Source of the DNA: Loxodes magnus
Lineage: Eukaryota; Ciliophora; Karyorelictea; Loxodida; Loxodidae
DNA length: 64,000 bases
Assembly (NCBI GenBank): GCA_946699065.1
Contig: CAMPDV010000889.1
Span: 1 to 64,000, forward strand
Direction of reading: 5' to 3'
The notes beneath the pieces are model-generated. The model did no database searches, had not been told where the DNA came from, and saw only the letters and a program-made list of their open reading frames with translations. Below are positions 2,795 to 63,000 of this stretch, piece by piece (the stretch's first letter is position 1; every line of letters begins with the position of its first letter). The translations under genes and the position numbers were made by a program.

Positions 2795-3866
2795 TCAACT
2801 CGAAACTCTCCACTTTCTTATTGTCCTGTCATATCCTCCCGATACTAACCATCTATTATCAACACTCAATGCTATAGACCATATTGATCCTGTATGCCCT
2901 TATAAAGTCTATATACACTCACCCTTATCAAAGTTCCAAATCTTGATTGTTTTATCCCATGAACCAGAAAAGATAACACTTGAATCGACACTTAACTGAA
3001 TACTTGATACATATCTTGAGTGACCTTGAAGAGTACGAATACACTAACCAGAAGAGAAGTCCCATATCTTAATAGTACTGTCACCAGAACCTGATATTAT
3101 ATACCTATTATCCTTAGACACTATCACTGATAAAACAGAACGTGAATGCCCAGTAAGAGTTCGCACAAGCTGACCAGTCTAGATATCCCAAATCTTTATA
3201 GTGTTATCCCAAGATCCCGATATAATATATCTAGAGTCATAGGAGAGTACTACCGATCAAACTTAATCAGTATGTCCCGTTAAAGTTCTTTGGAGAGAAC
3301 CATTGTGGAAATTCCAGATCTTTATAGTGTTATCCCAAGATCCTGATATAATATAGCTCGAGTCATAGGAGATTACTACCGATCAAACATAGTGAGTATG
3401 CCCAGACAAAGTTCTTTGGAGAGCACCATTGAGGAAATTTCAGATCTTTATAGTAGTGTCATCAGATCCTGATACTATATAGCTAGAGTCATAGGAGATT
3501 ACTACTGAGTTAACTGAGGAAGTATGTCCTGTTATAGTTCTTATGAGAGCACCTGTCTGGAAATTCCAGATCTTTATCGAATATTTAGGATATGCTGAAC
3601 TTGATACTATTCAATTCATATCACTTGATATGGCTACCGATAACACAGCTGAAGTGTGACCAGTGAGGATTTAATCTAAAAAATATTAAAGAAATACCTT
3701 TACTTTGGTCATAACTGATCTTATTTATTAACTTTTAGTAGCATAAATTAGGCAGAATTTCATACTTAAAATGAAGTAGAGATATTTTCCCTAGAATGTG
3801 GCTTCTCGCTCTTAAGAGTTTTCTTAAAAAAATAATTTTAGCAAATTGTTTTTCTTTTTTCTCCAT
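2795..3866 (-). CDS. WD40 repeat protein, seven blades, copy 1
   Basis: Predicted 349-aa protein: a basic helical leader of about 56 residues, then seven WD repeats (GHT...SGS.D.TIKIW pattern) forming one complete beta-propeller, a scaffold for protein binding. The start ATG is at 3866. One 22-nt GT-AG intron (3676-3697) joins the leader to blade 1 in frame, and the exons total exactly 350 codons including the TGA stop at 2795-2797, directly after blade 7. Gln is written TAA/TAG in several places. Four internal TGA codons fall at Trp positions: before IVSSS in blade 1, in one KI-W-N, and in two V-W-S turns. No frameshift is present. Partner and role are unknown. The gene has three other copies in the window (19310, 41781, 61201). 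Confidence 0.9.
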
Positions 3867-8154: not shown

Positions 8155-9275
8155 ATTATTGGAGTCAGGCAATCTTAATAAGATATAAAAAGTACAGGGA
8201 CTGTAAATTTAATAACAATAAAAAGTGTTAATTAATATATAATAGATTTTTAGAATATTTATACTACTGAAGACGCGGTATTTGTCAGAATTAATTCCTT
8301 GAACTATTCTTCAGAGATAAAAAATAAAATGATATAATCACTAGCTAAAGATAAGTAGCAAGATGTACTTTAAAAAAGTCTTATCTACTTTTAATGAATC
8401 TTAGTTTATTGTCTTGAATTGGTTATTCTTTTAAAATTACATTGCAATGTATTTATTTCAAATTCTATATAAAACTTCACACTGAATCTTAAATGGATCC
8501 CAACTCTGATGTAGCATTTATTTTAACAAAGTACAGTAACCTTAAATATTTAAAGAATTTAAAATAAATGACTAAACATTTTCAAATAGAACTTTAAGAT
8601 GCTAGTAGTAGCAAATAATTTTAAATAAAGTTTAAATAAAATAGAATAAACATTTTATTCAGATGCAATAGGAAGGTTGAGTGCGATGCCTACTTCACAT
8701 CTTTATTTTAAAGATTAAGATAATAACATTGATTAATATAAATTTCCAACTTATTACTTACACAATATTAAACAAGACAATGATTAGAGAAATAGTATCA
8801 ATTTTCAAATTAATGACCTTTAGTTACAATTTTTAGTATTATTTGAAATATAGGTACTATTAAATAAAACACTCTTAAATTTGCATTTGCGGAGAATAAG
8901 AAACCTATTAACATATTTCTTAATGTGAAGCTCTGCAAGATTTAATGGAAGAATTTAAAGACTTGAAAAATTATGATTTGCTTAAACTTATAACTTACAA
9001 AAAATTTAAATTAATCCTAACTTCCATACTCTAAGATAACTTTAACAAATTGACTACAGAATTAAATACTTTCATTCAAAATTGCTTCATAGAAGAATTT
9101 AAATTTTAGAGTAAAAAAACGAACAAGTGGAAGAGTTAATGGAATAATTTGGCTTGTGAGCAAGTGCAGAAGAAAATGATTAAAGAAAATTAAATCAAGA
9201 TTATTGAGATGGAAGTTGTAAAACATTTTTTATTATCTATATGAAATATGGTAAACACATATAAATTTTAATTAT
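8155..9275 (+). CDS. Unrecognised protein sharing a C-terminal domain with the 46863 gene
   Basis: The 5' half reads as a hydrophilic segment (IYTTEDAVFVRINSLNYSSE) followed by a likely membrane helix (FQWILVYCLELVILLKL). The 3' part from about 8925 contains CEALQDLMEEFKDLKNYDLL, which closely matches CEALQDLIQEFKDFKNYDLI in the gene at 46863-48202, and then an amphipathic segment IDYRIKYFHSKLLHRRIQIL that also has a counterpart there. The two shared pieces are in different frames here, so an intron or a frameshift separates them. The start was not resolved. Function is unknown; the shared block suggests a small membrane-protein family. Confidence 0.4.
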
Positions 9276-9474: not shown

Positions 9475-10110
9475 TCATATTATATCAAGATTAAAAATTG
9501 CTTTGCAAGCGTAACAATCTTTTTGCTTAATTAAAATGCTGCAAAAATTTTAATTAATTATAAATAATAAAAATTAAAGTTTAGGTTTAAATCTTAAGTT
9601 ATTGTCACCTTCAATTATCATTGAATCATTTCTTTATTCTTTCAATTCCATTTAAAGATGTAGTTTGTACTGATTTTCTTCTATTTTTTCTAATTTGCTG
9701 ATTAGTTCTTTCTGCTTCTATTGCTAGTTTTGAGATTAACTACTCTAGTCTTGTGATATATTTCAAAATGCGTTAAGGTCTCTTTCTTAGGTCACGAGTC
9801 TCGATTCTATTTCCTCTGCAAGTTCAAGTTTTACATTAACTTCTTATTGTCTTTCTTCAACATTTTTACCTCTTCCTGGAGGTCTACCACCATTTTAACA
9901 AGCTAATCATAGTTTATTTACTATTATGTGGTGAGATTCGAGACTTCCGAGCGCATAATATTCTTATCCTATTTTAGGCTTTTTTAGAGGTGGGAGATTC
10001 ATCCTGATTGATGATTTTTTATTACTCTTTTCCTGGTCCTAACCTTTCTAGGATGTCGTTAACTCCTACTTTTTAGGAGCCACGAAGAATCCCGGTTTGA
10101 ATCCTGACAT
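9475..10110 (-). CDS. Basic coiled-coil protein, PGFF family
   Basis: One frame runs from ATG at 10110 (MSGFKPGFFVAPKK...) to TGA at 9475-9477, 212 codons without a frame break. The N-terminal third is Lys/Gln/Ser-rich; around residue 70 is a Gly/Arg patch, NGGRPPGRGKN, like an AT-hook; the rest is coiled coil (KQKELISKLEKIEEN). Gln is mostly TAA/TAG. Two TGA codons read as Trp (KLWLAC and NAFWNIS), and the second is conserved as TGA in the paralogue at 48830-49400. The PGFF start is shared with the gene starting at 38757. A nuclear, DNA-associated role is a guess from composition. A hairpin at 10052-10111 that resembles a tRNA is part of this coding sequence. Confidence 0.55.
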
Positions 10111-19309: not shown

Positions 19310-20393
19310 TCAACTCGAAACTCTCCACTTTCTTATCTTCTTGTCATATCCTCCCGATACCAACCATCTATTATCAACACTCAATGCTATAGAATATATT
19401 GATCCTGTATGCCCTTATAAAGTCTAGATACACTCACCCTTATCAAAGTTTCAAATCTTGATTGTTTTATCATCAGAACCAGAAAATATAACACTTGAAT
19501 CAACACTTAACTGAATACTTGATACATAACTTGAGTGACCTTGAAGAGTACGAATACACTAACCAGAAGAGAAGTCCCATATCTTAATAGTACTGTCACC
19601 AGAACCTGATATGATATACCTATTATCCTTAGACACTTTTACCGATAAAACTCAGCCTGAATGCCCAGTAAGAGTTCGCACAAGCTGACCAGTCTAGAAA
19701 TCCCAAATCTTTATAGAGGAGTCAGCAGATCCTGATATAATATATCTAGAGTCATAGGAGAGTACTACCGATCAAATTCAGTGAGTATGCCCCGTTATAG
19801 TTCTTTGGAGAGCACCATTGTGGAAATTTCAGATCTTTATAGTTGTATCAACAGATCCTGATATAATATATCTAGAGTCTGGGGAGATTACTACTGATCT
19901 AACTGAGGAAGTATGCCCCGTTATAGTTCTTATGAGAGAACCAGTCTATAAGTTTCAGATCTTTATGGTTTTATCACCAGATGCTGATACTATATAGTTA
20001 GAGTCTGAGGAGATTACTACTGATCAAATAGTAGAAGTATGTCCTGTTATAGTTCTTATGAGAGCACCTGTCTGGAAATTCCAGATCTTTATAGAATTTT
20101 CAGGAGTTCCTAAACCTGATACAATTCAATTCAGGTCACTTGATATGGCTGCCGATAAAACATCTGAAGTGCTATTAATGACTTAGTCTAAAAAATATTA
20201 AAGAAATACCTTTACTTTGGTCATAACTGATCTTATTTATTAACTTTTAGTAACATAAGTTAGGCAGAATTTCATACTTAAAATGAAGTATAGATACTTT
20301 CCCTAAAATGTGGCTTCTCGCTCTTAAGAGTTTTCTTAAAAAAATACTTTTAGTAAATTGTTTTTCTTTTTTCTCCGTTTGTTTTTTCTCCAT
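19310..20393 (-). CDS. WD40 repeat protein, seven blades, copy 2
   Basis: Predicted 353-aa beta-propeller with the same architecture as copies 1, 3 and 4. Start ATG is at 20393, where a short in-frame duplication adds five residues to the leader (MEKKQTEKKEKQ instead of MEKKEKQ); one codon is missing at the exon 2 start. The 22-nt intron is 20188-20209, and the exons sum to 354 codons with the stop TGA at 19310-19312. This copy has the most internal TGA codons, eight, all at Trp positions: the N-W-I of blade 1, the W of KI-W-N in three blades, both W of a GHTH-W-I-W-S turn, an I-W-S turn, and the W of GHSG-W-V, the textbook WD40 turn. The last of these is about 46 codons before the stop. No frameshift. 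Confidence 0.9.
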
Positions 20394-34799: not shown

Positions 34800-36780
34800 T
34801 TCATATTCTCAAACTTACTTCATATTCGACATTTTCTTGATGCTTTCACTCGCCACTATTTTCTCAAAACTACAAATTACTATTTGAATAGAAGATATAT
34901 ATTGTAATTCACTCAAATTCACTCCTATTTATATTTAAATTATATACTTACCTTCTTTTATACTTAACCATCTTTAAGATCTTGCAATAATTTTGAATAT
35001 TTCACTTTCTTATCTATTTCTCTTATCCTCATGATATTACTCCTTTTATATCTCCAGTCAGCACTAATTCGTAAATTTCTCCCTAATATCCTCGTAATAA
35101 TATTAACCTCTCATCTGTTTAGAAATTTCATATTTTTACAATGTGTCATATTATCAAGATATTATAAACTTATTGTTAGTTGCTATTAGTAATATTCTCA
35201 CTAAATTCGTATGGCCTTCTAAAGTTCGTATGCTTTTTTTTGTTGGAAAGTTTCATATTTTGATTGTTTTGTCATAACCTCCAAATATTATGAGTTTTTT
35301 TCATGATTAAATTCTATTGTTATTATCGAATCTTGATATCCTTAGAGAATTAGAATACATTAACCAGTTGAAAAATTTCATATTTTTTATAGATTAATCA
35401 GAACTTTCCGAAACGATTCATTTGTTACCACTACCGATCTAGCATAATCGTGTGTCCCATCAAAGTACTTTTTAAGGTCACATTCAAAAATTCCCATACT
35501 TATATTGTACTAGCATAACTTCCCGGAACTATTTATTTCTAGTCCCTCTTTACAGCTTCATTCGCTCGTTCGGTCGAAGTACTCTTATAGAAATCACTCA
35601 GAAAATCCCAAATCTTTATAGTCGAATCATTACTTCCTGATATGATTATTTCTAGTCACTCGTGACCGCTATCGAATAAATTCAATCCATATGTTTCAGC
35701 AAAGTATCAAAAGATTAGGGCAATTTCAATTACATATTATTTAAATTTCCTCCATCTAAGTTGCAGTTGGTTAGCTTCGCATTCTTCATATTCCTTAGAT
35801 TGACCACTTATAAATTTGAGTTTCTTAGATTACAACCTTGAAAATTTGATTCATTCAATTAGCACCTTAGATTCTTATTCCCTCAAATCTTTTTTATATA
35901 AAATTATAGTTAAAACATTTTAAGATTGCTATCGCATTTGCAGAAGCTTATTCTACTTTGATATCAGCCTTAGATAATTCTATGATATCATTCAATTTTT
36001 TTTTATCAAACCTTAACTTGATAACTGTTTTAATTTAATCAAATCATTTTAATTATTACATATGTTAGAAAATTTAAAGGTTTTTCTTACAAATTAGCAT
36101 TTTTCAAAACTTTATTTTAAAATTTTTCTAATAATTTAGCAACATTCACTACTGTTAATAGTGTAAAATCATATTTAATTTATTATTTAAAATATTTATT
36201 TATTATATCTGCAATATTATAATCTTATGGATTTTAATTCTGCACTTTTCTGCAATAAAATTCATAACGATAAAATAATTTTAATTAACTGATCTGAAAT
36301 TTAATTAACATTTACTTCTTCATTTTTAACTTAGTTATATTTCTAAATCATTAACTTTATCTGTTTGTATTGATGTTTAATTATATGTAATAAGGCTACT
36401 ATTTCTTCTTGTTACTATCTAGTTTATGATGGTAAATGTAATGTTTTTTCTAAATTTTAAATTATTTCTTCGATTTTTCTTATATTATTTTATAATTGCC
36501 CTCTAATATTATTTAAGGTTTGAAGTACATACTTAATTGATGATATTAGAAAAGATTTTTTAGATCATCAATATAACTTTAATGAAGTTAATTTACTATA
36601 TCTTTTATTATTTAAATATTTGCAAATAATTCTATAAATTTTCATTTAGTTTTGCTTTTTATTGAAACTCATTGTTCTCTTCTCAAATTTTCAGTTGAAA
36701 TCTAGTCTTTTAACTCAGATATTTGCCTTTAAATATTTAATAATGTGTTTTACAAAATATTTATTGAGCGACATAAGGCC
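34800..36780 (-). pseudogene. Decayed coiled-coil / pentapeptide / WD40 protein gene
   Basis: Read 5' to 3' on the minus strand. A coiled-coil N-terminal region lies at about 36540-36230 (QLQNNIRKIEEIIQNLEKTL). Next come pentapeptide repeats at about 35860-35730 (NLRNSNLQVVNLRNMKNAKL, with N/L every fifth residue). WD40 remnants follow from 35690 on: [36 protein letters not shown] and a final R-K-W. WD motifs are in three different frames, with indels between neighbouring blades that are too dense for introns, so the gene looks dead. It is not a copy of the intact module WD40 gene; the domain order and sequence differ. Confidence 0.7.
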
Positions 36781-41780: not shown

Positions 41781-42867
41781 TCAACTCGAAACTCTCCACT
41801 TTCTTATTGTCCTGTCAAATCCTCCCGATACCAACCATCTATTGTCAACACTCAATGCTATAGATTATATTCCATCTGTATGCCCTTACAAAGTCTATAT
41901 ACACTCATCCTTATCAAAATTCCAAATCTTGATTGTATTATCCCGTGAACCAGAAAAGATAACACTTGAATCAACACTTAACTGAATACTTGATACATAA
42001 CTTGAGTGACCTTGAAGAGTACGAATACACTAGCAAGAAGAGAAGTCCCATATCTTAATAGTACTGTCACCAGAACCCGATATTATATACCTATTATCCT
42101 TAGACACAATCACCGATGAAACATAACCTGAATGCCCAGTAAGAGTTCGTACAAGCTGACCAGTCTAGAAATCTCAAATATTTATAGTTTTATCCCAAGA
42201 TCCCGATATAATATATCTAGAGTCATAGGAGATTACTACCGAGGTAACTCTAGAAGTACGTCCCGACAAAGTTCTTTGGAGATCACCATTGAGGAAATTT
42301 CAGATCTTTATGGTTGCATCGTAAGATCCAGATACTATATAGCTAGAGTCTGGGGAAATTACTACCGAGTAAACTGAGCCAATATGCCCCGTTATAGTTC
42401 TTTGAAGAGCACCAGTCTATAAGTTTCAGATCTTTATGGTTTAGTCATCAGATCCTGATACTATATAGCTAGAGTCTGAGGATATTACTACCGAGTAAAT
42501 GAAAGAATTATGTCCTGTTATAGTTCTTATGAAGGAACTTGTCTGGAAATTCCAGATCTTTATCGATTTTTCAGGATATGCTGAACCTGATACTATTCAA
42601 TTCATATCATTTGATATGGCTACCGATAAAATAGGTGAAGAGTGACCAGTGAGGGCTTAGTCTAAAAAATATTAAAGAAATACCTTTACTTTGGTCATAA
42701 CTGATCCTATTTATTAACTTTTAGTAGCATAAATTAGGAAGAATTTCATACTTAAAATGAAGTAGAGATATTTTCCCTAGGATGTGGCTTCTCGCTCTTA
42801 AGAGTTTTCTTAAAAAAATAATTTTAGTAAATTGCTTTTCTTTTTTCTCCGTTTGTTTTTTCTCCAT
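41781..42867 (-). CDS. WD40 repeat protein, seven blades, copy 3
   Basis: Predicted 354-aa seven-bladed propeller. ATG is at 42867 (leader with the MEKKQTEKKEKQ duplication, as in copy 2); the 22-nt intron is 42662-42683; the exons sum to 355 codons; stop TGA is at 41781-41783, after the seventh RKW. Four internal TGA codons lie at Trp positions: N-W-I in blade 1, KI-W-N in blades 2 and 3, NI-W-D in blade 4. One GHT has become GRT and one SSG has become SSC, minor drift without loss of frame. A standard-code reading would break this gene into pieces; the plus-strand frame at 42132-42377 is only a shadow. Confidence 0.9.
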
Positions 42868-46051: not shown

Positions 46052-46866
46052 ATGAAAATTCAGAAGAAGAAGACTGATTACCTGTGGATCACAAGTGTAT
46101 TCCTCTCATTGTATGTTATTGGAACTTATAAAAATCCAGAAATATCTAATTAAGAAGATATAAAGTAGATAGCACAGAATATCAACTTTTTTAAAGTAAC
46201 TTCACCTTGGGCAATGTGACTCATTTATTGGATTGTTGACTTAGCTTCAATATCGTCTATCACTACTTTCCTATATATTATTATTAAAGTTTTAGATAAA
46301 GATATGTCTAACGATAGTTTCAAAAAGTGGATAAAGTCTATTTCAGTCAATATGTTGGCTTTATCTTTGATGCAAACGTTCATCGATTGGACTATCTTAT
46401 AGGACATAACGAAAGTCACTACGGGTCGCACATATTTTTAGTCTGTCATTCGTATATTATGTTATGGATGCTAGGTTTTGAACTTTGGTGGTATACATAG
46501 CATAGAGCATCACATAATATCAAATTTTTAAATCGTTATGGGCATTCATTTCATCCCTAATGGTAAAAACCTGAAGATAAGATTGGAATAACTAATTTTG
46601 CATTCGATCACATAGTAGAAACTTATGTTTCTATGTCAACTTTATTCTACCCTATACTAATATTTCCTATTAACTACTGGGCCAAAGTATTTATATCTTT
46701 AAGTTATATGATGGTTGCTGTAATGTCACATTGGGATAAGTTCCCATACAAATATCATCTCGATCATCATTATAAGATTATAGCTAACTATGAAACAATA
46801 ATAACAATCTTCGACAAAATTTTTGGAACATATTACAGTCAAGAGAAAAAAGAGCACGACAAATGA
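46052..46866 (+). CDS. Fatty acid hydroxylase / sterol desaturase superfamily protein
   Basis: Membrane di-iron enzyme of the PF04116 type, which hydroxylates or desaturates lipids or sterols in the ER. Start ATG at 46052. A 20-nt GT-AG intron (46327-46346) joins the hydrophobic N-terminal part to the catalytic part; the exons total exactly 265 codons to TGA 46864-46866 (264 aa). Histidine motifs: HRASH at 46501-46515 (HX3H), HSFHP at 46543-46557 (HX2H, with Pro at the usual third His) and HLDHH at 46756-46770 (HX2HH), followed by the typical DKIFGTYY end. Upstream GHNESHYGSH adds further His. One internal TGA (46217-46219) reads as Trp. Another intron choice (29 nt, ending before 46320) also restores frame. 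The TGA overlaps the ATG of the next gene. Confidence 0.8.
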
Positions 46867-48202
46867 TAACTCTTTATAAAATCTTATTTAAAAATAAACG
46901 CTTTTTGTTTTCCTTTATTTTAACTTTTATTTTACTTTATTTTTCTCTTAAAATGTGAAATTTCTGTAGACCTGTTTCATATGGGAAACTAGATAAAGAG
47001 AATCGTTTTGAAATTTTAGATATGTAGCGAGGCGTCATCTCTTTTAAAAAATAGAGAAAGAAAGTAGAAATACCAGCTGGGATTTATATTTCGGTAAAAA
47101 CGGAAAAGAGTTTAAGAAAATACATTTTAAAACTTGAGGTTGATATAGATATGAAAAATATCAAAGAGGTAACACAAGTATTTGCATTTAAAGAATGGAT
47201 ACTTTTATCTTTATTTGATTGAAAATAGTAGGACCAGATTTTAAATATTATTATAATTAGTCGTTTTACTACTGAAGCACTGAAATTTACGTTTGTTTAG
47301 ATGTAGTATATTAAAATTTAATTATTACATAGAACAAAATGCTAGTGATATGCAATTAATATGAGTTGAACGATTGATAATCGAATTACTTTATAAAAGC
47401 ATTGTAATGATTTAAATATCAGAAATATCTGAGATATAAAAAAATCGAAAGAGAAGTTACTTTTAAATCAATGATAGATTTAAAAAATAACACCAGAGAA
47501 AAAAAAGGTAAAGAAAATGTCTACTCTATGCTAGGTAAAGTTAAAAAAATAAAGAGCTGTAATAATTTAAATATCTTAGTCGTAATTTCGATCTATATAG
47601 CAGAGATCTTAAATTATGAATATCTTGACTTTTAATTTATATAAAATAGATCTTACATATATCAGCTTATTTAAAATAGAATGCTTATTTATTTTTTGAT
47701 TAAGATACTACTTATTTCCTTAAAGCAACATAAAAATTTGTTAATAATTTTTTTCATATTTCCTTAGTTTGATTCACAGCTGTATACGATTTGAGACCTT
47801 TGAAATTATTTAATTCTAAAAATTATTGATTCCTTCAGACAATATTTTTATTTTGACTTCTATTTTATATCAATTAGCTTTGCTTGTAGCTTTGTTCATA
47901 TTGAATCATGTGAAGCTCTGCAAGATCTAATTTAGGAATTTAAAGATTTTAAAAATTACGACCTAATAAAAATGTTAACATATAATTAAAGTTATCTTAC
48001 TCTTAATTTCCCTACTTAAAAACAGCTAAGAGAAATAGATTTTAGAATTAAAAGCTTCCATTAACAATTATTGAAGAGAAGAATTGAAATCCTATAGTGG
48101 AATGAGGAAATACTACAGTGGCAGAACGATTTGGATAAAGTTGTAGCAGTAGGAGGAGAAGAACAAGAACAAGAAGAAAAAGAAAAAGAACATGAGCAAT
48201 GA
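46863..48202 (+). CDS. Unrecognised multi-pass membrane protein, 434 aa
   Basis: ATG 46863 overlaps the hydroxylase stop. Three exons: 46863-47290, 47307-47403, 47423-48202, with introns of 16 and 19 nt (GT...AG; the second is GTAATG...CAG), total 435 codons in one frame. Likely membrane segments: RFLFSFILTFILLYFSL near the N terminus, ILVVISIYIAEIL, and a hydrophobic stretch before the C-terminal domain. That domain (CEALQDLIQEFKDFKNYDLI onward, from 47909) is shared with the gene at 8155-9275. The end is a charged coiled coil with a Glu-rich tail (EEQEQEEKEKEHEQ) directly before the stop. Internal TGA codons read as Trp, e.g. TIWDLWNYL and KMWNF. Function unknown. Confidence 0.6.
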
Positions 48203-48829: not shown

Positions 48830-49400
48830 CAACCTTTTTCCCGCCAACTTCTAGATTGATCTAGAAACATAAAATAAAAGTTTGAAAATCTCTAAAACTC
48901 TTCTCCTTGCCCATGCTTTTTGTCCTTGAATTCTTAAATCACCTAGATACTAGATATCATTTTTTCTTGCAAGTTTAACATATTTGTTACTATATAGTCT
49001 TTCTCTTTATAGTTTTAGTTGTTACTATCTCTTCTTTTATTTTTCCAAATACTTCTACCAGTTTTAATATTCTTTCTTGAAATTGAGAAACTTCTAGCAG
49101 CTTTTTCACAGATATATTTGAGAATTACAATATTAACATCTTTTTACTTGTCTTTTAGTTGAAATCTTGAGTAATTTTTGTCTTCAATTATTATTAGATT
49201 ATTCCTTATTCTTTCAGTTTCATTTAACGGAGCAATTTTATCTGATTTTCTAATATTTTTCTAACTTGTGAATCAACTCTTTCTACTTCTATTGCTAGTT
49301 TTGAGTTTAGCTGTTCTAGTCTTGCTAAATATTTCAAATTACGTTAAGGTCTCTTTCTTATGCCTTTGATCCAATTCTGTATTTAAATTTAAATTTTTAC
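48830..49400 (-). CDS. Paralogue of the 9475-10110 gene, with HTH-like segment; 5'-truncated
   Basis: The minus strand reads QERDLNVIWNIQQDQNSQTQ then KQKELIHKLEK, matching QERDLNAFWNIS... of the 9475-10110 gene, including the TGA used as Trp. In a second frame follow TERIRNNLIIIEDKNYSRF, then YICEKAARSFSISRKNIKTG (the helix-turn-helix-like segment shared with 37850-38757), a basic RSIWKNKRRDSNN, and finally YLGDLRIQGQKAWARRRVLE in another frame. The PGFF start is missing. Frame changes may be introns or decay. Confidence 0.5.
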
Positions 49401-60089: not shown

Positions 60090-63000
60090 GTATTAAGAGT
60101 AAATAATAATCTATTAGATTAGTTTTAAATAGTTTATATTAGCTAATCTAATACTTATATTATCTAATACTACAAAGAAACATATTATGTTAAGTTAACT
60201 CTTTCTATTAATTCAGAAAATAATAATAGAAGATATTAAAAATATGCTTTCTTAAAAGCTTATAATTTTCTAAATATCAAACAACTAATTTTAATAAAGA
60301 GAGTATTAATAGTGTTAGCAATACAATATAGATTTGTATAGAATAATAGAATTAAGTTTTTATCTTTAAATAATCTAGAATAAAGGTATTATTAGATTGA
60401 AATGATAATTACAAAAATAACATAAATAATAAATATAATATTAGTTTGCTATAAAAAGAGAAAGTTATCTAAATGTATTTATTACATTTATATATTTTGC
60501 TTAGAATCAACATTAAAGGTAATAAATTATATTAGTTTATTATTTTAAGAGAGACCTTTATAAATAAAAAGTTTTAATTAAATAATAGTAAGAAAGTGGA
60601 CAAATAAAAGATTTATCTTATAAATTCTAAAAATACTTTGTTTTAAATAATTTAGAGTTTTTTAATATTTATTCAAACTAATTAATAAGAAACTCAATTT
60701 TATTTACTTTTTTTTAATTAGTAAAAAGCTTAAAGAAATCCTTTTTTTTAATTAAATGTAAGTGAAAAGTAATAATTAATAGCAATAGCCTTAAAAAATG
60801 CTAATATTTTATTTACCAATTAAAAGAGTCTATAAAGAAATAAGGTATTCTTATTAAGAGTCTTTGATTTAAAGCACAAATAAGTTGTAATTAATAAATG
60901 CATATTAAAGTTATTATAATAAGGATATAAATTCTTCGTTATAAACTTTTTAAATAATAACTTATCCTTTTATTTAAAAGTAAAAGGATATAAAATAATT
61001 AAAATTATAAAAGTTTGTACACTATTAGTTTTATATATTGTCTTGTTTTAAGACAAAAATAGAAAAATCAATGTTTTAGAAGATACTTATAAGTATGCTT
61101 AATAAATAATTTAATAGTTTAATTTTATTGAAATTAAGTAAGTAAAATTTATTGAGTTATTTTAATTAAATAGTTATTTAAATAAGTTATAAAAATTAAA
61201 ATGGAGAAAAAAGAAAAGCAATTTACTAAAATTATTTTTTTAAGAAAACTCTTAAGAGCGAGAAGCCACATTTTAGGGAAAATATCTCTACTTCATTTTA
61301 AGTATGAAATTCTGCCTAACTTATGCTACTAAAAGTTAATAAACATGATCAGTTATGACCAAAGTAAAGGTATTTCTTTAATATTTTTTAGATTAAATCC
61401 TTACTGTTCATTCTTCAGCTGTGTTATCGTTATCCATATCAAGTGACCTGAATTGAATAGTATCAAGTTCAGGATATCCTGAAAATTCGATAAAGATCTG
61501 GAATTTCCAGACAGGTGCTCTCCTAAGAACTATAACAGGACATACTTCCTCAGTTAACTCGGTAGTAATATCCTCAGACTCTAGATATATTATATCGGGA
61601 TCTTTCGATAACACGATAAAGATCTGAAATTACCATAATGGAACTCTATAAAGAACTATAACGGGACATACTTCCTCAGTTTACTCGGTAGTAATCTCCC
61701 CTGACTCTAACTATATAGTATCGGGATCTTATGACAATACCATAAAGATCTGAAATTTCCACAATGGTGCTCTCCAAAGAATTATAACGGGGCATACTAA
61801 TACAGTTATATCGGTAATAATCTCCTATGACTCTAGATATATTATATCGGGATCTTGGGATACAACAATAAAGATTTGGGATTTCTAGACTGGCCAGCTT
61901 GTAAGAACTCTTACTGGGCATTCAGGTTCTGTTTTATCGGTGATAGTGTCTAAGGATAATAGATATACAATATCAGGTTCTGTTGACAGGACTATTAAGA
62001 TATGGGACTTCTCTTCTGGTTAGTTTATTCGTACTCTTCAAGGTCACGTAGATGGTGTACGTAGTATTCAGTTAAGTGTTGATTCAAGTGTTATATTTTC
62101 TGGTTCATGGGATAAAACAATCAAGATCTGGAACTTTGATAAGGGTGAATGTATATAGACTTTGTAAGGGCATACAGATCCAATATCTTCTATAGCATCG
62201 AGTGTTGATAATAGATGGTTGGTATCGGGAGGACATGACAATACTGTGAGAAAATGGAGCATTTCGAGTTGAGTAACTTGCTATTTGACTTAATTTAATT
62301 TTACGATTAAAGATATAAGATATTGATTATTCATTTAAATGAATATTTAATGGTAATAATGTTTTTAGTTTTATGAATTTTTTTTAATTTATTTAAAATT
62401 TGCTATATTCTTAAATATTATTGGTTTAAAATAAAGGTTGAGTAATATGTTATAGAAATTAGTGAGGTATGTTGATTTAAAGTGGTAATGTTTAAAAAGT
62501 ATTAAAATATAATTTTGTTAAATGAAGACGTATAATAAATTTAAGTTTAAATTTATGCTATAAAATTTTATAGATTTATTTTTAGATTTTGTAAAAATTT
62601 CAAGTTGAGTATAAATTTTCATTTTTTTTGTGAAGTGGTTAAAATATTATTTATTATGGTAAAGTAAGTTTATAATTTTGATTATTAATTAAAAAATTTA
62701 ATTAAATATTTATTTTATTTTAAATTAAATTAAATTAAATTAAATTTTGTTTTTTAATTTTGTTTTTTTATGATTGATATTTAATATTAATTATTATTAT
62801 TATTAATTATAATTAATTATTAGTGTTTATTATAATTATTAAATTTTAACATTTAAGTTTAATATGTTTCGTTTCCGATTTGGAAAATTAATTTTTCTGA
62901 TGGTAAGTTTTTATCTTTCAGGTTTAGAGCTTAAATTTCATGAAAACAAAAATTTGTTTTTTTGCTCATAGTTTTACACTACCAAAGATTTTTGGGACGG

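Follow-up and report, generated by a model that had tools for sequence, protein, structure and literature searches.

Evidence for UGA as both tryptophan and stop in a large family of WD40 genes of the ciliate Loxodes magnus

The WD40 genes and their surroundings

The DNA analysed here (the window, 64,000 nt, positions 1-64,000 of contig CAMPDV010000889.1 in the Loxodes magnus assembly GCA_946699065.1) carries four genes of a common build, each consisting of a short N-terminal exon of about 57 residues and a second exon that encodes one 7-bladed WD40 propeller. Copy D lies on the forward strand at 61201..62272, with its ATG at 61201, exon 1 at 61201-61369, an intron at 61370-61391, exon 2 at 61392-62272, internal in-frame TGA codons at 61454, 61625 and 61751, and a stop TGA at 62270-62272. 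Copies A, B and C share this build on the minus strand. Copy A runs from 3866 to 2795 (intron 3697-3676; internal TGAs at 3613, 3442, 3385 and 3259; stop TGA 2797-2795), copy B from 20393 to 19310 (intron 20209-20188; internal TGAs at 20128, 20026, 19957, 19831, 19780, 19774, 19654 and 19453; stop TGA 19312-19310) and copy C from 42867 to 41781 (intron 42683-42662; internal TGAs at 42599, 42428, 42302 and 42176; stop TGA 41783-41781). The intron, which was overlooked in a preliminary description of this DNA, is a 22-nt GT..AG element (GTATTTCTTTAATATTTTTTAG) whose letters are identical in all four copies. Its removal is required because only then does the ATG at 61201 join the WD40 frame, and we infer its splicing from the frame and from this conservation.

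When TGA is entered as X, copy B matches the Pfam WD40 model with an E value of 1.3e-61. Structure prediction of the exon-2 proteins, with Trp at each TGA, gives a complete 7-bladed propeller (mean pLDDT 95.7, pTM 0.92), the best structural match of the predicted fold being the designed 7-bladed WD40 protein 7big (TM 0.95); since the predicted propeller is complete, the terminal TGA would sit at the end of the fold. All four genes are embedded in repeated DNA, the repeats reaching about 6 kb in length and sharing roughly 86-92% identity.

Of the 128 strand-kilobases in the window, about 55, picked by a crude coding score, were scanned with Pfam, several stretches on one strand only; the intervals 1-4.8, 10.3-16.4, 31.5-34.5, 38.9-46 and 58-64 kb, which include copies A, C and D, lay outside the scans on both strands. 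Within the scanned stretches, the families that exceeded curated cut-offs were WD40-type propeller models, pentapeptide repeats and FA_hydroxylase. The last of these marks a fatty acid hydroxylase gene on the forward strand at 46052..46866 (PF04116, E 9.4e-9), which ends in a stop TGA at 46864-46866 and has a 23-nt intron at 46452-46474 and a single internal TGA, at 46217, flanked by M and L outside the Pfam domain. A decayed pentapeptide and WD40 relative with frameshifts, on the minus strand at 34900..36000, provides a natural pseudogene control. The window also holds two pairs of repeated stretches with charged, coiled-coil-like frames (8912-9112 with 47897-48098, and 9580-9789 with 49154-49360), for which the Pfam scan gave no match and which are possibly transposon remnants.

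Internal TGA codons in the WD40 genes

The preliminary description counted 4, 8, 4 and 3 in-frame TGA codons in copies A, B, C and D, 19 in all, and placed the end of each gene at a TGA after blade 7; the coordinates, the counts and the gene ends are all correct. The same four genes contain 11, 5, 6 and 8 in-frame TGG codons (30 in total) and 7, 7, 9 and 7 TAA or TAG codons (also 30). Because copies A-D share ancestry, these 19 TGAs are not to be counted as independent events. If blade positions are numbered so that the Trp of the KIW motif falls at register 42, the 19 TGAs are distributed over registers 42 (nine), 27 (four), 19 (four) and 17 (two). The proposal that every one of them lies at a canonical Trp position holds strictly for the nine KIW sites and extends to the four near-invariant ones, but fails for the six at registers 17 and 19, two hypervariable surface positions at which Trp is optional and N, Y, R, Q, T, I or S occurs in other copies. 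The 28 KIW codons of the window are 19 TGG and 9 TGA, with no other codon among them, and register 27 (DLN-W-IVS), a single homologous column, is TGA in all four copies.

Residues were assigned to codons by scoring against 55 prokaryote WD40 loci (nearly all bacterial, with one archaeal MAG) while the three "stop" codons were masked. Fifteen of the 19 sites had 15 or more alignments, a set that excludes the four thinly aligned TGAs of register 27; over these, TGA scores as Trp with 50.7 bits, the next residue being Tyr with 5.4. The 30 TGG sites of the same genes, taken as a control, give Trp with 96.3 bits, and 41 of 49 listed sense codons were assigned as in the standard code, the eight miscalled ones being AGC, AGG, CAA, GAA, GCT, GTG, TTA and TTG. 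Trp makes up 72-90% of the aligned residues at the nine KIW TGA sites, but only 4-20% at the six in registers 17 and 19. The assignment of TAA and TAG to Gln within the WD40 genes, also part of the preliminary description, is less clear from these genes alone: TAG scores 28.7 bits as Glu versus 23.5 as Gln, the best residue for TAA is Arg with 8.5 bits, and Gln is thus not separable from Glu here, the matter being settled in favour of Gln by the Ras loci described below.

The family across the genome

The assembly comprises 705,730,643 bases in 7,843 contigs, and a first look with the N-terminal exon returned 2,905 candidates in it; the 150 that were scored are 91-98% identical, and the family has at least 150 copies. 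No relatives of this exon were found in IMG/VR. We read 26 further copies (L134-L159), of which 22, when TGA is translated as Trp, run from the ATG through the intron to a TGA past blade 7, two are without the usual intron donor and two are frameshifted; because these copies were chosen among the best exon matches, 22 of 26 is not a genome-wide estimate. Counting the window genes, and allowing for two copies (L142 and L148) that share a protein, 25 distinct copies are available for comparison. Their 175 KIW codons comprise 119 TGG, 54 TGA, 1 TGT and 1 TAG, and at register 27 they have TGA in 23 cases, TGG in one and TAA in one. The 100 internal TGAs of these copies fall at register 42 (54), at register 27 (23), at registers 17, 19 and 35 (21), at register 16 (1) and at register 33 (1), the last of these being in an otherwise intact copy (L151), at a position occupied by Gly, Glu, Asp, Ala or Arg in the others.

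The statement that the last 45 or so codons use TGG only is borne out in the window (9 TGG, 0 TGA), but one of the 25 family copies has a TGA 30 codons before its stop, which is the nearest internal TGA in this set of related copies with few Trp sites in that stretch. The TGG-only gene ends amount to three columns only and are not significant by themselves.

Amino-acid change within the blades peaks at registers 17, 19, 35 and 37, which rank 1, 2, 3 and 5 of the 42 registers. Over the 25 copies pN/pS reaches 1.93 at these four registers, against 0.41 in the rest of the blade and 0.12 for exon 1; any claim of selection from these values is provisional because simple pairwise counts ignore relatedness and recombination. 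The surface codes made up by the four registers are distinct in 24 of 25 copies, with a median difference of 21 of 28 residues, and 21 of the 57 Trp residues at these registers are encoded by UGA.

Many other matches to WD40 blades are scattered over the genome, as in contig C1503 at 12.6-101.6 kb (L056-L063), contig C119 at 708-737 kb, and contigs C9, C272, C620, C1832 and C6957. They often recur at multiples of 126 nt, in C1503 across most of the contig, and some lie in open frames of more than 2,000 codons. One stretch of C1503 (L056) has near-identical blades with TGA in HADWV and LRTWIGH. Such stretches may represent either satellite DNA or a giant gene.

Ras, protein kinase and eRF1-type genes

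Two unrelated gene families of the same genome, each aligned within itself, were represented by the best-scoring 30 of 150 Ras matches and the best-scoring 30 of 136 kinase matches. Among the Ras genes TGA (22 of 23 codons being scorable) scores as Trp with 128.8 bits, followed by His with 5.8, and 20 of the 22 lie in columns that are at least 60% Trp; two such Trp columns contain 18 TGG, 9 TGA and 3 other codons, and 15 TGG, 11 TGA and 4 other codons, respectively. The 21 kinase TGAs give Trp with 85.5 bits and Phe next with -19; 13 of them are in columns of at least 60% Trp, one of which has 22 TGG, 7 TGA and 1 other codon. The preliminary description held that internal TGAs at non-Trp positions of conserved domains in other genes would speak against its reading. 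What we find in both families is TGA at conserved Trp columns, an outcome largely in favour of that reading, with some exceptions (for Ras 2 of the 22 scored TGAs and for kinases 8 of 21, mostly in variable columns), to which the WD40 copy L151 and the window pseudogene may be added.

These genes also separate Gln from Glu. As Gln, TAA and TAG score 132.4 and 56.1 bits in Ras; in kinases Gln is the best residue for both codons, with 29.0 bits for TAG and a weak 6.7 for TAA. The CAA control gives Gln with 52.8 bits in Ras and 97.7 in kinases, and the CAG control gives Gln with 38.8 in kinases, with no residue above zero at its 16 Ras sites. A reading of TAA and TAG as Glu, left open by the WD40 genes, is ruled out by the Ras loci.

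C-terminal cysteine motifs mark the end of Rab-type proteins. In 13 of the 30 Ras-type genes the first TGA past the domain comes immediately after such a motif or no more than a few residues away from it, as is expected of a real stop; a fourteenth ends in CNLL, and the others, in this comparison without intron models, have no cysteine motif before their first TGA.

Two eRF1-type genes lie about 35 kb apart on contig C196 (19713-20081 and 54613-54981; L125 and L126). Trp is encoded by TGG only in the stretch that was read, both genes end in TGA, and the stop-recognition motif is RAQNIKS, the usual eRF1 motif being TASNIKS.

The genetic code and its alternatives

We assign a probability of about 96% to the reading that these genes use the karyorelict nuclear code, in which UAA and UAG would specify Gln and UGA would specify Trp inside genes and stop at their ends, and that the WD40 genes are intact and belong to a large set of paralogs. 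The karyorelict-type ambiguous code of the preliminary description is thereby supported, TGA being found both at gene ends and, in the WD40, Ras and kinase families, at positions where Trp is conserved. In terms of NCBI table 27, UGA as Trp within coding sequence is found in all three families, UAA and UAG as Gln in Ras (and as the best residue in kinases), and UGA as stop in five window genes and in 13 of 30 Ras-type tails. Translation would be the default for UGA, and nearness of the transcript end would favour termination, as proposed in published models (PMC4967479).

The alternative that retains the most weight concerns not the code but the tRNA that serves it, and would have UGA read by a tRNA-Trp with anticodon UCA. 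Three loci for tRNA-Trp(CCA) were examined: a tandem array on contig C67 at 482321-491201 (L127), a second array on contig C148 at 155464-169421 and beyond (L129), and a gene on contig C110 at 470105 (L128). The one copy read in each array has a 4-bp anticodon stem with its top unpaired (A.C in one, T.C in the other), whereas the stem is 5 bp long at C110, so that the short stem is present in two of the three genes read. A tRNA pattern with anticodon CCA gave 125 matches in the genome, the 100 listed being all on C67 and C148. The preliminary description had suggested a search for a tRNA-Trp(UCA) gene, and the same single pattern with anticodon UCA gave 0 matches genome-wide; the pattern is strict, in that it misses the C110 gene and would miss a tRNA with an intron, an odd variable loop or another T-loop. 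A cognate tRNA is the commonest solution in other reassigned codes, according to PMC13092985. Given the search result we nevertheless regard a tRNA-Trp(UCA) as an unlikely reader of UGA in Loxodes, and consider that the tRNA-Trp(CCA) with a 4-bp stem probably reads UGA in the cell. Because regularly spaced copies are also seen for other tRNA-type genes of this genome, no special link between the tRNA-Trp arrays and the code is claimed.

A Condylostoma-type code, in which UAA, UAG and UGA all serve both as sense and as stop, assigns the same sense meanings to the three codons, and rare UAA stops occur in karyorelicts. We consider it very improbable for this genome, in view of the gene ends: the five in the window and the 13 of Ras type are all TGA, so that no UAA or UAG stop is present among the 18 ends placed from sequence.

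Least probable of all is the view that the four WD40 genes are pseudogenes, untranslated repeat copies in which TGG has decayed to TGA. In its favour are the setting of copies A-D in repeated DNA, the presence of a true WD40 pseudogene in the same window, the two frameshifted and two donor-less copies among the 26 read elsewhere, and dN/dS values of up to 0.87 between copies in propeller segments. Over the six pairs of copies, however, 749 of 6306 coding sites differ (11.9%) and all 7 coding indels are multiples of three. The 500-nt flanks diverge less, by 7.2 and 8.2%, and yet have 29 and 23 indels, of which 27 and 21 break the frame. It is because none of 7 coding indels breaks the frame, versus 48 of 52 in the flanks, that the four copies are not pseudogenes. 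Whole-gene dN/dS is 0.41-0.57, below 1 in all six pairs (segments range from 0.08 to 0.87). G-to-A decay, moreover, should yield TAG as often as TGA, and the KIW codons of the window include no TAG at all, those of the 25 copies merely one, besides one TGT, of 175. The window pseudogene shows what decay looks like, since four of its six covered TGAs are at sites without Trp, where relatives have Gly, Asp/Asn or a mixture, and two are at Trp. Together with the unrelated Ras and kinase genes, which follow the same TGA rule, these intact frames, dN/dS values and KIW codons lead us to reject decay.

A further question is whether coding continues beyond the terminal TGA. In the first 110 nt past it, differences among the six pairs number 23, 10 and 10 at frame positions 3, 2 and 1, a mild third-position excess of few and non-independent differences that could be a weak hint of readthrough or of a frame that was coding until recently. 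Continuation is unlikely because the first 100-300 nt after this TGA are AT-rich (16-18% GC), the 500 nt that follow it hold 23 pairwise indels of which 21 are frame-breaking, and the predicted propeller is finished there; the published code argues against it as well.

Comparison with known systems

The code itself is already known and has been published for L. magnus. As given in PMC11441545, the species uses NCBI table 27, in which UGA is the only stop but can encode Trp where the poly-A tail lies sufficiently far downstream, and UGA is depleted for about 20 codons before the stop; introns average 19.3 nt, with 93% of them at 25 nt or less, GC content is 33.5% in coding sequence and 18.6% in 3'-UTRs, and the macronuclear assembly of 706 Mbp is rich in repeats. 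Our introns of 22 and 23 nt (one of 21) fit those sizes, and GC content here is 34.6-35.1% in coding sequence and 17-18% downstream of the stop. The table 27 code of karyorelicts (Parduczia, Loxodes) has the same UAR as Gln, the same UGA as Trp and stop, the same tiny introns and the same AT-rich 3' ends, and no differences were found in the features tested. The UGA finding is thus a correct independent rediscovery from raw sequence, to which are added per-gene evidence of UGA codons for Trp in intact genes.

The preliminary description likened this pattern both to karyorelicts and to Condylostoma, and the first likeness stands. Condylostoma magnum (table 28) has the same sense use of UGA and UAR and a position-dependent stop, but is less close because UAA and UAG can also stop there, in contrast with the TGA-only ends of the genes examined here. 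A tRNA-Trp(CCA) with a 4-bp anticodon stem has been reported for Loxodes (PMC13092985), and the tRNAs of Blastocrithidia nonstop, Condylostoma and Loxodes share with ours the CCA anticodon and the unpaired stem top. The difference here is the arrangement in two tandem arrays, and these arrays of 4-bp-stem genes are an addition of value beyond the known code.

The hypervariable WD40 family with its conserved flanks is the part worth following. In the het-d and het-e genes of Podospora, positive selection acts on codons 7, 9, 25 and 27 of the WD40 unit, which lie at the top of the propeller (PMC1805685). A constant shift of 10, which ranks first of the 42 possible shifts, aligns codons 7, 9, 25 and 27 of the Podospora HET-D/HET-E/NWD proteins with registers 17, 19, 35 and 37 here, and the two sets are both hypervariable. 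The diversifying selection at four surface codons that characterizes NWD/HET-E is likewise found here, provisionally, by simple pairwise count (pN/pS 1.93 vs 0.41). What differs is the NACHT/NLR part of the fungal proteins, which was not found: none of the best 25 of 33 Pfam families near copy B, on both strands of 16.4-23.1 kb, is NACHT, and the genes here consist of the short N-terminal exon and a single 7-bladed propeller. In the open-licence literature we found no report of a Loxodes WD40 repertoire, none of ciliate WD40 non-self recognition with positive selection and, by title among the matches listed, none of expansion or paralogs of a WD40-repeat family in ciliates. A large hypervariable WD40 family that peaks at the four HET-D/HET-E positions is, provisionally, what is new here. 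We suggest tentatively, and with somewhat less than even confidence, that these genes serve as a diversifying recognition repertoire of very large size, in which the N-terminal exon stays almost constant, the propeller top varies at four HET-type positions and UGA-encoded Trp is part of this variation. If true, a single-celled ciliate would possess variable binding proteins by the hundreds or more, with an architecture like that of the sensors of fungal non-self receptors.
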